Under the pieces are notes generated by a model. That model saw only the letters and a list, made by a program, of their open reading frames with translations. It was not told the origin of the DNA and did no database searches. From Psychroserpens ponticola (GTDB taxonomy: Bacteria > Bacteroidota > Bacteroidia > Flavobacteriales > Flavobacteriaceae), in the NCBI RefSeq assembly GCF_023556315.2, contig NZ_CP116221.1, positions 1,189,001 through 1,253,000 on the forward strand: DNA of 64,000 bases, in the 5' to 3' direction. The position numbers and the translations under genes are program-made. Positions within the stretch are counted from its first letter, which is position 1. Each line of letters begins with the position of its first letter. Of the stretch, positions 21,558 through 30,635 are shown piece by piece.

Positions 21558-22412
21558 CTAAAAAGAGCCTACAATTCCAATTTGATTTCCTCCAAACTTT
21601 AAATTCCAAGACATATGTTTTTTCTTCTGAGAATAAGCATAAGTTTTTTCATTGAAAAGATATTTATCAATACTATCAACAACGATAATGCTAATTGCTG
21701 CGCTAAAAGCAATATCAGTAATCCAATGCGCATCATCAATTAATCTAGAAATAGGAGGAATAGCTCCAATAGTATATATTCCAATTTTCGTCCAAGTATT
21801 GTCAAACTGCTTTGCTATGGCATGTGCCATGGTAATAGAAAGTGCTGTATGTCCTGATGGAAATGAATGATATTTCGCCTCACTTGAAAATGGTTTAAAA
21901 TCTAAATGATCTAAATCAGAACCAGGCCTAGCTCTTCCAAATACTGATTTGCTAATTGTTTGTATCAATCCGGTTGTAATTGATGATGAAATTATTAGAA
22001 CACTCGTTTTTCTGACTTTTTCATTCTTTGTGATTAATCCAAAACCATATAGTCCAGCATTAGCTATAAAATAGTTTTGCGGACTACCAAAATACCATCC
22101 AAAATCTCTAACAACTTTAGGGAAATTGCTTTTTTGATTTTGAAAAAAGTCTCTTGTAGGATTGTCTGCAACCGTCAATGCCGTTGTTCCTGCTAAAAGG
22201 ATTCCTAATTTTGTAAAATCTCTACTTTTCCATGTTGCAGGCTTTGATAAGGAATGGCCTACGGCTTTAAAAGTTAGTTTTGTGTCATATTTGAGTAATG
22301 TCCATGATGTTTCAGAGCTGTCTATACGCTTAGTAGGCTGTATATTTTGTGATAGAACAAAGTTTGAACAAAATGAGAAGAAAAAAAATAAAAATAACGT
22401 AGATGGTCTCAA
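21558..22412 (-). CDS. PAP2-family lipid phosphatase, exported
   Basis: 284 residues with a signal peptide (about 1-21). The three PAP2 motifs are present: KSVFGRARP, PSGHT and SRLIDDAHWITD. It probably dephosphorylates a lipid phosphate such as phosphatidate, undecaprenyl pyrophosphate or lipid A, outside the cytoplasm. A TATTTTTG box on the minus strand (22443-22436) with TTG 24 bases further up may be its promoter. Originally it was probably the direct downstream neighbour of pheT, judging by the pheT fragment behind it. Confidence 0.88.
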   Translation of the reverse strand: MRPSTLFLFFFFSFCSNFVLSQNIQPTKRIDSSETSWTLLKYDTKLTFKAVGHSLSKPATWKSRDFTKLGILLAGTTALTVADNPTRDFFQNQKSNFPKVVRDFGWYFGSPQNYFIANAGLYGFGLITKNEKVRKTSVLIISSSITTGLIQTISKSVFGRARPGSDLDHLDFKPFSSEAKYHSFPSGHTALSITMAHAIAKQFDNTWTKIGIYTIGAIPPISRLIDDAHWITDIAFSAAISIIVVDSIDKYLFNEKTYAYSQKKKHMSWNLKFGGNQIGIVGSF

Positions 22413-22490
22413 TGATTTTGAATAACAATTATCGACAAAAATAAAGCATTTTCATTTTTAGATTTCACAAAAAAATGCTAATAAAATGAT

Positions 22491-22579
22491 TTTTTGTTAT
22501 CTCAATTCAGCACCAAGCTGTTTTTCAAAGTTTGCTTGAAGCTCATTAATGATTTTCTCAATTTATTTGTGTGAAAGTA
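22491..22579 (-). pseudogene. 5'-truncated, diverged second copy of the pheT 3' end
   Basis: Bases 22491-22570 align without gaps to 24341-24420, the last codons and stop of pheT: 70 of 80 match, the first 33 perfectly. Translated, it ends in NFEKQLGAELR and stop like PheT, with mostly conservative changes further up (IEKIINELQA against IDKIMNKLQT) and one Gln codon turned into a stop. The copy lies 1.85 kb from the real pheT end with the lipoprotein gene between. The rest of the 22413-22650 interval shows no other feature apart from the PAP2 promoter candidate. Confidence 0.9.
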
Positions 22580-22650
22580 TACTAATTATTAAGTATTCTG
22601 ACCTTAATTAATTTTTGTAACTTGTTTGTTTACTAATCAACCCATTTATA

Positions 22651-24297
22651 ATGAAAAATTTTATTCGCTTTTACTTTTTATTTAGTTTAATTATCGTTGT
22701 TTTTTCTTGTTCAGATGATAATGATTCTGACAATTCACCTGATCCAAATAACGAATATATAGAGTATTTAAATACTCCTAATTCTGAAGGGCAATTATTA
22801 TCTGAAATTTATATGGATAATGATAATGCTACGACTTATGTATATGGAAAAACAGATGGAGATGGAGCGCCTTTGGAGATTCAAAGTTTTGCGTATAATG
22901 CTGACAATTCAAATAAAGTCGATTATGTTATTTTAGATGATAATCAAAGAGTCTCATTACTGTATTCTGAAACTAATGGCTTAAAAGATGATATTATTCA
23001 TAAGTTTATTTACCCTGAAGATGGATTGGTAAACTATGTTGTTTATGAAAGAGATTGGATTACGATGTCTGATGCAGTTATTAATTTTACTACAGTAGAA
23101 TATGATGGAGATAGTTTTACAGGTTATGGTCTTCTAAGAAACGCAAGTAATGTAACAGGAATTGAATGGAATGCGGTTAAAGGTTGGTTAGGTGTTTGTG
23201 TTGGTGTTGCAGGTGCCGCAATTTTGGTGGTTACAGCTCCTACAGTATTGGCAGGAGTTTTAGCAGCAGTTATCTTTGCTGGAGCAGCTTCAGCTTCTGA
23301 GCCTCCTGTTGAGGAAACTAATCCAGATGCGCCAGATACACCAGATACTACTTTAGATGAAAACCAATGTGAAGATTCAGATTTGGAAGTCATAATAGGT
23401 GTAGATCCAGGAAATCTTTTAGTTGCTATTGTTAATGGAGATACAGCAAGTTATACCTTTTACTGGTCTACAGGAGATGTAGATACTGGAATAATCACTG
23501 ATTCTATTGTAGCTCCAGGAGACGGTAACTATTACCTTATGGTTATTGATGATAATGGTTGTATTGCTTTTGGATCAGCGACCATAGGTTCAGAGCCTGT
23601 AGATGCTCAACTATTAATTGCAACTTGGTATCTTGTTGGCGAAACGGAAAATGGAGTAAACACATTTGATGTTGATGATTGCAATATTACAGTTGAATTC
23701 ACCGAAAATCAACTTATTGCAACCGAGTTTTATGGTGATGCTTGTGAGTTATCCGATGAAATACCTAGTAACTACGAAGTTAACGGTAACATCATTACTG
23801 AAACAGCAGATGGAGATACATCATTCATTACAATTTTAGAATTGACACCTTATAAAATGGTACTACAAGAAGTTGATGGGGCGTTTACTTATGTTGAGAC
23901 CTATACTAATATTTTTGGAGGATGGTTTTTTGCTGAAAATTCTAATTGTGTTGTTTCAAATGGTGATACTTTTATGGATAATGGATCTGGTGAGCTTTTA
24001 ACTTTAAATGAAGATTATACAGCGATTTTACCTGATGATTCCAATGGTAATTATTTGACAAATAGTTTTACTTTTGAAAATAATATTCTAACTATAAATT
24101 TAAGTTATCAAGATTTTTTCTCACCAGCATGTGATGGAGTTAATTTTCAAACAGCTACTAATTCTATGACTTTAACTTATGATAAGGTTACCAATACGTT
24201 TAATGGAACTTCACAAAGTAGCAGAACAGATGTTATTGGGTCAGATTGTACTAGGTATGGAGAGACTTGCACAGGCACTGTTTCGTTGACACGTTAG
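22651..24297 (+). CDS. Accessory lipoprotein with internal hydrophobic segment, SprB-like repeat and lipocalin-like part
   Basis: 548 residues. Lipobox at the N-terminus (VVFSC, Cys about 20) followed by an acidic Asp/Asn/Ser tether. Residues about 175-215 form a Gly/Ala/Val-rich hydrophobic stretch (VCVGVAGAAILVVTAPTVLA), long enough for one or two membrane passes, which is odd inside a lipoprotein. Then a PKD/SprB-like unit (SYTFYWSTGDVD to GNYYLMVIDDNGC) and a C-terminal part with two lipocalin-like stretches (ATWYLVGETENG; GGWFFAENSNC). Function unknown. It is opposite in strand to its neighbours and sits between the pheT gene and the pheT fragment, so it is probably acquired. Confidence 0.75.
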   Translation: MKNFIRFYFLFSLIIVVFSCSDDNDSDNSPDPNNEYIEYLNTPNSEGQLLSEIYMDNDNATTYVYGKTDGDGAPLEIQSFAYNADNSNKVDYVILDDNQRVSLLYSETNGLKDDIIHKFIYPEDGLVNYVVYERDWITMSDAVINFTTVEYDGDSFTGYGLLRNASNVTGIEWNAVKGWLGVCVGVAGAAILVVTAPTVLAGVLAAVIFAGAASASEPPVEETNPDAPDTPDTTLDENQCEDSDLEVIIGVDPGNLLVAIVNGDTASYTFYWSTGDVDTGIITDSIVAPGDGNYYLMVIDDNGCIAFGSATIGSEPVDAQLLIATWYLVGETENGVNTFDVDDCNITVEFTENQLIATEFYGDACELSDEIPSNYEVNGNIITETADGDTSFITILELTPYKMVLQEVDGAFTYVETYTNIFGGWFFAENSNCVVSNGDTFMDNGSGELLTLNEDYTAILPDDSNGNYLTNSFTFENNILTINLSYQDFFSPACDGVNFQTATNSMTLTYDKVTNTFNGTSQSSRTDVIGSDCTRYGETCTGTVSLTR

Positions 24298-24312
24298 TAG
24301 CAATAAAATAAT

Positions 24313-24345
24313 AAAAAAGCCTTTTCGAAATGAAAAGGCTTTTTT
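24313..24345. terminator. Bidirectional terminator between the lipoprotein gene and pheT
   Basis: AAAAAAGCCTTTTC pairs perfectly with GAAAAGGCTTTTTT around a five-base loop, with A run on one side and T run on the other. It can end both the plus-strand lipoprotein gene and minus-strand pheT. It touches the repeated pheT end, and the left copy lacks the stem. Confidence 0.92.
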
Positions 24346-24346
24346 G

Positions 24347-26773
24347 TTATCTCAATTCAGCACCAAGCTGTTTCTCAAAATTAGTTTGGAGCTTATTCAT
24401 GATTTTGTCAATTTGTTTATCTGTCAAGGTTTTCTTCTCATCTTGAATGGTAAAACTCACAGCGTAACTTTTCTTTCCTTTTGGTAAGTTTTTACCTTGA
24501 TACACGTCAAATAAGTCAACATCTTTAAGCAGTTGCTTTTCCGTTTGCATTGCAATTTTATCGATGTCTTCAAAAGTTATTTGATCGTCTAATAGCAAAG
24601 CGAAATCACGTCTTACTTCAGGGTATTTTGGAATATCTGTAAATTTAATGTTTTGGTGTTTTGCTAGATCAACAATATTATCCCAATCAAATTCAGCATA
24701 AAGTACTTCTTGCGAAATACTAAAATGCTTTATGATCTTCTTGTTAATAATGCCAAAATCAACCAACTTCGTTTTTCCAAGTGATAAGCTAATCCCTTCA
24801 CTAAATACATCGTTTTTAATTGGAGAGGTTTTAAGATTTGAAAAACCTAAACGTTCTAATGTACTATTGACAATGCCTTTTAAATAAAAGAAATCACTTT
24901 TTTGAGCTGCAGAATTCCAACGCAAAGTATTTTTGTTTCCAGTTAAGAAAACAGACAGTCGTTTGTATTCTTCGCGATTTCCATTGTAGTTATGATAGGT
25001 TTTTCCAAATTCATATAACTTCAAATTATCTCGCTTTCTATTAATATTATAGCTAACAGCCTCTAATCCAGAAAACAATAAACTTTGACGCATCACACTT
25101 AAGTCGTTACTTAACGGATTGAGCATTTCTACGTTGTGTTCTTCTTTTAATTGCTCACTTAATTCAATATACTTAGGTGTCGTTAATGAATTAGAAAGTA
25201 TTTCAAAAAAGCCTTGTGAAGACAATTGGTTACCTATTACATTTTGGAGTTTGTAATCTTCAAATCTTGAAGTATTAGAAATTGAAGCGTTTAACTTTTC
25301 AGTGGTTCCAATATTGTTGTAACCATAAACACGCAATATTTCTTCTATAATATCGGCTTCACGTTGTACATCATTTCGGTATGCAGGAACTGTTAGTCCT
25401 AATCCAGTTTCAGTAACGTTATTAACTTTAATATCTAAAGATGTCAAGATGCTTTTTATCGTTTCTTTCGGAATTTCTTCACCGATTAATTTCTTTGCGT
25501 TATCAAAACTCAAACGAACTTGAAAATCTTTAATTTTATTTGGATAAAAATCTAATAAATCACTTGTAATATCTCCACCAGCGACGTCTTGAATTAATAA
25601 TGCAGCACGTTTTAAAGCATATTCAGTAATATTCGGATCGATACCTCTTTCAAATCTAAAAGATGCATCTGTATTCATAGCATGGCGTTTCGCTGTTTTA
25701 CGAATACTAACAGGATTGAAATATGCACTTTCTAAAAAGATATTCGTTGTGTTTTGTGTTACTCCAGAATCTGTACCACCAAAAACACCAGCAATACACA
25801 TTGGTTTTTCAGCATCACAAATCATAAGATCTTCTTCGTGTAATTCGCGTTCAACATCATCAAGAGTTGTGAATTTTGTGCCTTTAGGAAGTGTTTTTAC
25901 AATAACTTTATTTCCTGAAATTTTAGCGGCATCAAAAGCGTGTAAAGGTTGACCTAATTCATGTAGCACATAATTAGTAACGTCAACAATATTATTTTTT
26001 GGTGTTAAGCCAATTGCTTTTAGTCTATTTTGTAGCCATTGAGGAGATTCTGCGACTTTTAATCCAGAAATAGTGACACCACAATAACGAGGTGCTAAGG
26101 TTTTATCTTCAACGTCAATATCTATTTTAAGAGTTCTATTTTCAACATGAAAGGAACTAACAGAAGGTGTGATTAATTCGCTATTGATTTCTTTTTGCAG
26201 TAAACCAGCTTTTAAATCACGAGCGACTCCAAAATGACTCATGGCATCAGCACGATTTGGTGTTAAGCCAATTTCAAATACCTCATCATTTTCTACATTA
26301 AATAATTCAGCAGCTTGGATTCCAATTTTTGTATCAGCATCTAAAACCATAATCCCATCATGAGATGAGCCTAATCCTAACTCATCTTCGGCACAAATCA
26401 TTCCGTGACTTTCTTCACCTCTGATTTTGCCTTTTTTTATGGTCCAAGCTTCTCCTTCAGCAGTATATAATGTTGTTCCAATTGTTGCTACAGGAACTTT
26501 TTGTCCTTTTGCAACGTTTGGTGCTCCACAAACAATTTGTAGAGGGTTAGTATTACCAATATTTACTGTGGTTATTTTTAAGCGATCTGCATTTGGATGC
26601 TGCTCACACGTCAGTACTTCACCAACGACAATGCCTTGTAATCCTCCTTTAACCGATTGAAAAGCATCAATGCCTTCAATCTCTAAACCTAAATCAGTAA
26701 GAAGCTCGCCAGTTTGTTCTGCTGGCCAGTCGATCTTCAAAAACTGCTGTAACCAATTGTATGAAATCTTCAT
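24347..26773 (-). CDS. pheT: Phenylalanine-tRNA ligase beta subunit
   Basis: 808 residues, full length. N-terminal EMAP-type tRNA-binding domain (about 40-150, CEQHPNADRLKI and IVCGAPNVAKGQKV), B3/B4 editing domain (about 220-390, with HELGQPLHAFDAAKI), B5 domain (about 400-480), catalytic-like core and the C-terminal anticodon-binding FDX-ACB domain (YPEVRRDFALLL to the end). With PheS it charges tRNA-Phe. pheS is not in this window. The last about 80 bases are repeated at 22491-22579. Confidence 0.97.
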   Translation of the reverse strand: MKISYNWLQQFLKIDWPAEQTGELLTDLGLEIEGIDAFQSVKGGLQGIVVGEVLTCEQHPNADRLKITTVNIGNTNPLQIVCGAPNVAKGQKVPVATIGTTLYTAEGEAWTIKKGKIRGEESHGMICAEDELGLGSSHDGIMVLDADTKIGIQAAELFNVENDEVFEIGLTPNRADAMSHFGVARDLKAGLLQKEINSELITPSVSSFHVENRTLKIDIDVEDKTLAPRYCGVTISGLKVAESPQWLQNRLKAIGLTPKNNIVDVTNYVLHELGQPLHAFDAAKISGNKVIVKTLPKGTKFTTLDDVERELHEEDLMICDAEKPMCIAGVFGGTDSGVTQNTTNIFLESAYFNPVSIRKTAKRHAMNTDASFRFERGIDPNITEYALKRAALLIQDVAGGDITSDLLDFYPNKIKDFQVRLSFDNAKKLIGEEIPKETIKSILTSLDIKVNNVTETGLGLTVPAYRNDVQREADIIEEILRVYGYNNIGTTEKLNASISNTSRFEDYKLQNVIGNQLSSQGFFEILSNSLTTPKYIELSEQLKEEHNVEMLNPLSNDLSVMRQSLLFSGLEAVSYNINRKRDNLKLYEFGKTYHNYNGNREEYKRLSVFLTGNKNTLRWNSAAQKSDFFYLKGIVNSTLERLGFSNLKTSPIKNDVFSEGISLSLGKTKLVDFGIINKKIIKHFSISQEVLYAEFDWDNIVDLAKHQNIKFTDIPKYPEVRRDFALLLDDQITFEDIDKIAMQTEKQLLKDVDLFDVYQGKNLPKGKKSYAVSFTIQDEKKTLTDKQIDKIMNKLQTNFEKQLGAELR

Positions 26774-28794: not shown

Positions 28795-28850
28795 TGATTT
28801 TCCATAACTTTTAATGAGCTCATCTTTAAATTCTACGAACACTTTTTGTG
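28795..28850 (-). pseudogene. 5'-truncated, diverged second copy of the miaE 3' end
   Basis: Bases 28795-28845 align without gaps to 30066-30116 at the end of miaE, with 43 of 51 matching. In the MiaE frame the copy reads KVFVEFKDELIKSYGKS against KDLVEFEGELIKSYGKS in the intact gene. The changes are largely third-position or conservative, so the copy diverged as coding sequence before it was cut. Same strand as miaE; the intact gene ends 1.2 kb away with two small accessory genes between. Confidence 0.85.
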
Positions 28851-30047: not shown

Positions 30048-30635
30048 TTACCCATGAATACTACCTGATTTCCCATAACTTTTAATGAGTTCGCCTTCAA
30101 ATTCTACTAAGTCTTTCCAGCGTTTATCAACATCAATGTCTTTTCCGTACTTCCTAGCGAATGTGATGAATGTTGTATAATGACCAGCTTCACTTACCAT
30201 TAAATCATAGTAGAATTTCGACAGTTCTGAATCTTTTATGCGTTCAGATAACAGTTTAAAGCGTTCACAACTTCTGGCTTCAATCATTGCTGAAAATAAT
30301 AAACGATCAACCATGCTTTGTAACTGACTTCCGCCTTTGTTCATGAATTTATATAGTTCATTGACATAGCTATCCTTTCTTTCTCGACCTAATGTGTAGC
30401 CACGTTCTTTGATGATATTATGAACCATCTGAAAGTGCTCCAATTCTTCTTTGGCAAGTTCAAGTAATTCTGTAACTAAGTCTTCATATTGCGGATTGTG
30501 AGTAATAATGGTAATAGCGTTTGTGGCTGCTTTTTGTTCACACCAAGCATGATCTGTAAGGATTTCTTCTATGTTTTCTTCAGCTATGGTTGCCCAACGA
30601 GGATCTGTTTCTAATTTGAGATGAAGCATGCTCAT
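30048..30635 (-). CDS. miaE: tRNA 2-methylthio-N6-isopentenyladenosine hydroxylase MiaE
   Basis: 195 residues. Ferritin-like di-iron fold with paired ligands visible: AWCEQKAATNA, LAKEELEHFQMVH, MIEARSCERFKLL and VSEAGHYTTFITF. It hydroxylates the modified adenosine at position 37 of tRNAs reading U-starting codons. Start MSMLHLKLETDPRW; Met 3 is an alternative. The last about 50 bases recur as a diverged fragment at 28795-28850, which marks the boundary of an accessory insertion downstream. Confidence 0.93.
   Translation of the reverse strand: MSMLHLKLETDPRWATIAEENIEEILTDHAWCEQKAATNAITIITHNPQYEDLVTELLELAKEELEHFQMVHNIIKERGYTLGRERKDSYVNELYKFMNKGGSQLQSMVDRLLFSAMIEARSCERFKLLSERIKDSELSKFYYDLMVSEAGHYTTFITFARKYGKDIDVDKRWKDLVEFEGELIKSYGKSGSIHG

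Follow-up and report, generated by a model that had tools for sequence, protein, structure and literature searches.

Gene content of the locus behind pheT

The window, i.e., the whole stretch of 64,000 nucleotides analysed here, belongs to the 4.03-Mb single-contig genome of a marine Psychroserpens-type bacterium (G000). The locus consists, in this order, of pheT, a convergent lipoprotein gene, a truncated copy of the pheT 3' end (the scar) and pap2 (Table 1). Apart from the lipoprotein gene, the insert contains only two ORFs of at least 50 aa, both of which overlap that gene (89 and 57 aa), and none of recombinase size. For comparison, we used 24 genus-level pheT loci, namely, those of 23 genus genomes (G000 to G022, including Psychroserpens mesophilus, G019, and Psychroserpens jangbogonensis, G020) and that of Arcticiflavibacter luteus (L088), which was taken as Psychroserpens luteus, its genus placement being based on the name and pheT likeness.

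Table 1. Features of the pheT-lipoprotein locus and of the miaE region in the window.
Feature	Coordinates	Strand	Basis or remark
pheT, intact, 808 aa	24347..26773	-	Pfam B3_4, tRNA_synthFbeta, FDX-ACB, B5, tRNA_bind
Identical core, proximal copy: final 27 nt of pheT including the stop, and 7 more nt	24340..24373	-	34-nt exact repeat
Inverted repeat, likely terminator common to pheT and the convergent lipoprotein gene	24308..24350	.	Inverted repeat, 95%
Lipoprotein gene, 548 aa, mosaic, with Lipocalin_4 domain	22651..24297	+	ORF list, Pfam, homologue comparison
Palindrome-like motif 5' of the lipoprotein gene	22579..22597	+	Read by eye
Scar: 5'-truncated copy of the pheT 3' end, with in-frame stop	22490..22580	-	Repeat and tail comparisons
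Identical core, distal copy	22490..22523	-	34-nt exact repeat
PAP2-superfamily gene (pap2)	21558..22412	-	Pfam; starts 84 nt behind scar stop
miaE	30048..30635	-	
Copy of 51 nt of the miaE 3' part (84%)	28795..28845	-	

The 548-residue lipoprotein originally predicted on the strand opposite to pheT is present as an ORF, with a start that we take to be lipobox-like and Lipocalin_4 as the sole Pfam match (34.5 bits, against a cut-off of 22.4); the lipoprotein profile gave one weak match to solved structures (profile positions 6-50, E 0.0042). A match to NCBIfam BSAP-5i, confined to residues 1-27 and reaching 20.8 of 150 bits, was not accepted as evidence of an immunity function. The protein probably acts at the cell surface. 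Across 24 homologues, the signal region and the N-terminal, middle and C-terminal segments vary independently; the P. jangbogonensis homologue, for instance, shows 73% likeness over residues 1-30, drops to 15-27% in the four segments that follow and reaches 88% over the final 128 residues. This mosaic pattern indicates that the segments are exchanged independently and suits a diversifying surface protein. In G011 (L039), two lipoprotein alleles, A and B, lie in tandem; their likeness is 97-100% in the first 750 nt and 71-92% beyond, and their upstream regions part after approximately 19 nt (by eye). Their first half looks as if homogenised by gene conversion. The description of the cargo as foreign-looking did not hold: the G+C content of the lipoprotein gene (33.8%) is close to those of pheT (33.5%) and ftsK (33.7%), and, judging by its distribution, the family is at home at the pheT locus within the genus rather than an exotic import.

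Motifs similar to the palindrome-like one are also found, by eye, upstream of the G011 and L088 lipoprotein genes. The upstream region of the window gene resembles that of G011 lipoprotein A (0 of 300 shuffles reached the score) and that of L088 (P 0.037); no similarity was detected to the upstream regions in G017, G019 and G020 or to that of G011 lipoprotein B (P 0.53-0.90). A hairpin similar to the likely terminator recurs elsewhere in the G000 genome; for this reason, terminator repeats alone, considered as evidence for G019, were dropped.

The repeated pheT end and its occurrence in relatives

The direct repeat spans 22483-22573 and 24333-24423 (86% over 91 nt). Within it, the original match of 22491-22570 to the pheT end was reproduced at 70 of 80 ungapped positions, both copies ending in the same stop codon; the next best position in the window reached 42 of 80 and the maximum of 20 mononucleotide shuffles was 43. 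The differences are unevenly distributed: the two pheT ends differ at 16 of 57 upstream positions and at none of the last 27 (Fisher P 0.0019), whereas the 126 genus pairs with 10-16 upstream differences all show 2-8 differences in the last 27. Because such a pattern was not seen between species, we place the join in the final ~30 bases of pheT.

The changes in the scar had been described as largely conservative at the protein level, and the fragment, on that ground, as having evolved as coding DNA before truncation. Seven of the 16 differing letters are absent from all 23 genus tails (6 of them from all 112 tails compared) and one of the 7 creates an in-frame stop, which indicates that the upstream part of the scar decayed after truncation. 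The other 9, however, do occur in other genus-level pheT tails, in excess of the share of matches to letters of other species expected from random change (0.23-0.31, P 0.004-0.03). With 9 letters ordinary in other species and 7 novel ones, the upstream part probably derives from another pheT lineage and has decayed since, and the last bases were probably shared or exchanged with the resident pheT. Consistent with the proposed origin in another strain or species, the upstream part has closer counterparts than its own pheT (41/57): 14 of the 22 other tails score higher, up to 45/57 in G011, L088, G018 and G010. A margin of 4 in 57 bases does not allow a source species to be named, and tails of 57-84 nt are too short to carry a meaningful tree.

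The intact end has affinities of its own. Its last 75 nt are nearest to those of lipoprotein carriers, namely, G011 (0.92), L088 and G019 (0.91 each), with G020 at 0.83; by the whole PheT protein, G019 and G020 are nearest to the window, and the pheT segment preceding the last 75 nt shows no such likeness to other lipoprotein carriers. Part of the intact end may therefore have been imported too; this is the chief argument against regarding that end as wholly native. A group test of lipoprotein-bearing versus other pheT tails (P 0.008 at 72 nt) was rejected, segments further inside pheT giving P 0.01-0.33, so that relatedness confounds it.

The lipoprotein gene lies directly behind pheT in 6 of the 24 loci (G000, G011, G017, G019, G020, and L088) and behind pap2 in 2 (G008 and G012), and is not found at the locus in the remaining 16; elsewhere in the genus genomes, the search turned up only distant relatives, in G000, G002 and G017. 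The pheT-tpx gap holds different genes in different species, including the lipoprotein gene, pap2, an ammonium transporter gene (G007, by Pfam PF00909, with similar genes behind pheT in G013, G015 and G022 by inspection of ORFs), an FMN reductase gene (G004) and a gene for an 827-aa Ig-like-domain protein (G001). In 12 of the 24 loci pap2 closely follows pheT, and it is missing behind pheT in G013, G017 and G019. Since pap2 is found close behind pheT in further genera of the family as well, this cargo-free state is probably the older one.

Alignment of each pheT end with up to 6 kb downstream gave scores of 99 for G000, 54 for G011 and 38 for L088, whereas the other 21 loci reached at most 31 (G017, at the start of the lipoprotein gene, followed by G016 with 29) and a reversed-tail control at most 28. 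Thus, 3 of the 6 carriers have a pheT-end copy beyond the lipoprotein gene, and no second pheT end was found by this sensitive alignment in the other 21 loci, which include the carriers G017, G019 and G020. The exact pheT-end pattern matched in 21 of the 23 genus genomes, with two copies only in G000 and G011, and in 65 of 397 genomes of the family sample, which does not contain G011, with two copies only in G000. The lipoprotein-free relatives conform to the original expectation of pap2 directly behind a single pheT end: in the six ORFs displayed, pap2 starts 2-6 nt after the pheT stop and no second end was found. The fragment was thus not found in cargo-free relatives and is not closest to the pheT of its own genome, so that neither of the two results originally held to speak against insertion was obtained.

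The scars of the two relatives differ in context. In G011, pheT is followed in order by lipoprotein A, 27 nt of the pheT end with a terminator, lipoprotein B, a gene like the G007 ammonium transporter gene and pap2. In L088, a decayed copy (34 nt, 82%) behind the lipoprotein gene is followed by tpx, and the 58 nt that separate the upstream motif from the core can be aligned to five pheT tails (P 0.002-0.054) and to the window scar (0 of 500 shuffles reached the score). The corresponding 63 nt of G011 were rejected as a decayed pheT tail (P 0.90-0.98). Neither a pap2 nor a pheT scar was detected behind the lipoprotein gene of G008 (P 0.90 and 0.91). An nhmmer match in L093 (E 0.49) was disregarded; with this profile, the decayed copy of L088 also escaped detection at E 10. 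A 15-nt likeness between the post-scar spacers of G000 and G020 (P 0.048) was not used.

Gene-end copies behind other genes

Nearby repeats of gene ends were sought for 2714 ORFs (100 aa or longer) from 3.52 Mb of sequence, comprising 110 loci (117 before duplicate filtering; six pairs still overlap, so that six genomes are represented twice), 40 stretches of G000 and 20 each of G011 and G005. Before sorting, ends showed no excess: under a 40% coverage rule, 19 'solitary' copies of ends lay downstream and 25 'solitary' copies of starts upstream. Rows judged by eye to be integron-like, tandem or paralogous were then set aside: L193 (7), L196 (2) and L185 (1) among the ends, leaving 9, and L193 (9), L231 (7), L225 (2), L179, L229 and L201 (1 each) among the starts, leaving 4. 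Two 'tail, upstream' rows (L141 and L177) were omitted as probable partial paralogues. Six of the remaining end copies reach at least 45 bits, namely, those of pheT in G000 and G011, L145, L105 (two) and miaE; none of the 4 start copies does, and one of them is the miaE scar itself. A less terminal end copy lies behind a 295-aa gene in L103.

Exact repeats of at least 17 nt at the stop codon were found for 7 of 2479 testable genes, and 4 of these (pheT of G000 and of G011, L145, and L105) remain after L193 (2) and L201 were set aside. At gene starts, such repeats occur in 11 of 2331 genes: 8 tandem or paralogous genes, 1 in L193, an 18-nt match in L194 and the miaE scar. Lowering the threshold to at least 15 nt adds three end matches of 15-18 nt (L231, L252, and L179).

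Altogether, an identical end is present in 4 of 8 gene-end copies (pheT in G000 and G011, the nearer copy in L105, and L145) and missing from the others (L088, the farther copy in L105, miaE, and L103). The identical ends behind the DUF481 gene of L105 and the 487-aa gene of L145 measure 22-23 nt; in G000 and G011, the identical block begins at the same base. In L145 (13127-15912), a 446-nt copy of the end of the 487-aa gene (88%) lies between two related lipoprotein genes, and relatives have one such lipoprotein gene or none at that place. In L105 (835-4618; Winogradskyella MAG BWSM_122), the DUF481 gene is followed by a stack of three convergent genes as cargo. They comprise a cold-shock gene, one with weak glycosidase likeness and one resembling AbiJ (PF18863, 100 bits); copies of the DUF481 gene end precede the second and the third. 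The miaE copy in the window (Table 1) is separated from miaE by two small genes and falls at the beginning of a DUF3124 gene; in P. mesophilus (L082), similar genes are present and no miaE copy was detected (P 0.33 and 0.78).

Two of the sorted-out categories deserve description. In L193 (G000:C1:1900001-1920000), an element of ~130 nt with AACAACGTGTATAAC-like ends recurs in ~20 matches of ~70-94% identity, spaced ~500-1300 nt apart; the arrangement resembles an attC array, as would be expected if G000 carries a chromosomal integron, and Rfam gave no match. Sharing on the start side exists in another form, in tandem genes of ~240-340 aa in L231 and L225 (both G011) and L179 (G000), whose first ~110-160 nt are common and whose later parts differ.

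Possible routes of insertion

A duplicated pheT end with an identical core and a decayed upstream part, no second end detected in cargo-free relatives, and end copies in two relatives and behind a few unrelated genes are the observations to be explained. We hold, with a confidence barely better than even, that a single gene was inserted by recombination in the pheT 3' end through host enzymes; the scar is most likely the trace of ordinary recombination rather than of a mobile-element enzyme. The pheT 3' end would be the fixed edge of a slot for variable genes. The incoming unit would comprise a terminator, the reversed lipoprotein gene with its upstream region and a pheT 3' piece from another lineage, and would enter by recombination within the last ~30 nt of pheT. 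Such a crossover would leave pheT whole with the new gene behind it, and would displace to the far side a hybrid tail, composed of the imported upstream part followed by the last bases and the flank of the resident, which would then decay. We infer that host recombination was responsible and that the unit arrived by uptake of DNA from a related bacterium, the donor being a circle or a scar-bearing chromosome, so that both repeats would provide homology. ComEC and DprA are encoded in the genome, but of 14 control genomes, 10 and 11, respectively, encode them as well. The single-crossover or targeted integration originally proposed is partly supported, in that the join lies in the last ~30 nt, as a crossover between homologous ends predicts; no donor, circle, integrase or attachment site was found for the insert, nor was a transfer seen. 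Against recombination in the pheT end speak the three scarless carriers (G017, G019, and G020) among six and the 4 of 8 gene-end copies without an identical end.

A linear donor explains much of the anatomy of the locus. In homology-facilitated illegitimate recombination, one crossover would fall inside pheT and the other end of the fragment would be joined without homology to the resident tail, such that the intact end is the imported one and the scar the old resident end. The likeness of the last 75 nt, and not of the preceding segment, to other lipoprotein carriers fits an imported intact end at least as well, and there is precedent in the Vibrio cholerae T6SS immunity-gene arrays, in which displaced genes and gene 3' ends have been ascribed to this process (PMC5361080, PMC9711863). 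However, it does not by itself predict 34 identical last nucleotides beside a diverged upstream part, unless gene conversion followed, and identical ends beside diverged parts are also seen in G011, L145 and one L105 copy; we regard it as unlikely, though with an appreciable chance of being right.

Tandem duplication of the pheT end and lipoprotein gene within one genome, followed by loss of the second lipoprotein gene in the window, is decidedly unlikely. A gene-end copy flanked by two lipoprotein genes does occur in G011 and in L145, and the two genes of G011 are nearly identical over their first 750 nt; their upstream regions and later parts diverge, however, and the window scar is not closest to its own pheT. 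Alternatively, pap2 could be the newcomer, added as a pheT-tail and pap2 fragment to a pap2-less genome with the lipoprotein gene behind pheT, the scar being its left edge. Relatives without pap2 at this place exist (G013, G017, and G019) and pap2 usually starts a few nt behind pheT, but in the window it lies 84 nt from the scar stop, and the scar is followed not by pap2 but by tpx in L088 and by the second lipoprotein gene in G011; this explanation has little probability. Site-specific integration, with the last ~27 nt of pheT as the attachment site for a recombinase encoded elsewhere, is very improbable: gene 3' ends are classical attachment sites and the identical block begins at the same base in G000 and G011, but the same form is seen at unrelated genes whose end sequences are likewise unrelated, two pheT ends occur in G000 alone among the 65 matching genomes of the 397 (a sample without G011), and the insert holds no recombinase-sized ORF. 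Integrase-borne islands at gene 3' ends keep the gene whole and duplicate its end on the far side. The direct repeat of the gene end is common to both; the present case differs in the single-gene cargo, the lack of an integrase in the insert and the differing cores at differing genes.

Minimal mobile elements are defined in an article (PMC3082526) whose reference list includes Saunders and Snyder (2002) and Snyder (2007). That article, which also mentions the pheS/pheT locus of Neisseria, characterizes them by conserved flanking genes between which whole genes differ across genomes. The pheT-tpx gap likewise holds differing whole-gene cassettes, and an identical core and a change of similarity near the pheT end, which may reflect homologous incorporation, are observed; in contrast to those elements, here the comparison is between species, the slot lies behind pheT and a truncated end of the flanking gene is left. 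With the Vibrio cholerae arrays, the locus shares a new gene beside a conserved one, displacement of an older allele and a displaced 3' end of the neighbouring gene. A displaced older allele behind the scar is found in G011 and L145, which keep two lipoprotein alleles in tandem, and is absent from the window, where pap2 follows. Unlike in those arrays, we saw no cluster for effectors or secretion at this locus, the scar derives from a housekeeping gene, and some joins carry a 22-34-nt identical core at the stop codon. Our literature search found no paper on this pheT-lipoprotein locus. The window case is a real insertion scar of a known general kind, whose sharp signature, identical bases only at the stop codon, recurs in 4 of 8 copies.

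More broadly, single-gene cassettes flanked by copies of conserved-gene 3' ends in Flavobacteriaceae could represent an integrase-free cassette system, in which short identical ends at stop codons would allow entry, exit and stacking behind housekeeping genes of cargo such as surface lipoproteins and defence-like genes; we consider this generalization doubtful, with a small chance of holding. At the pheT locus itself, the trace of a single gene entering a conserved chromosomal site without a visible mobile-element enzyme can still be read, and similar traces lie behind a few unrelated genes. Should identical stop-codon cores turn out to be general, such scars could help to trace which genes were gained recently and from which donors, with the pheT slot as a natural test bed.
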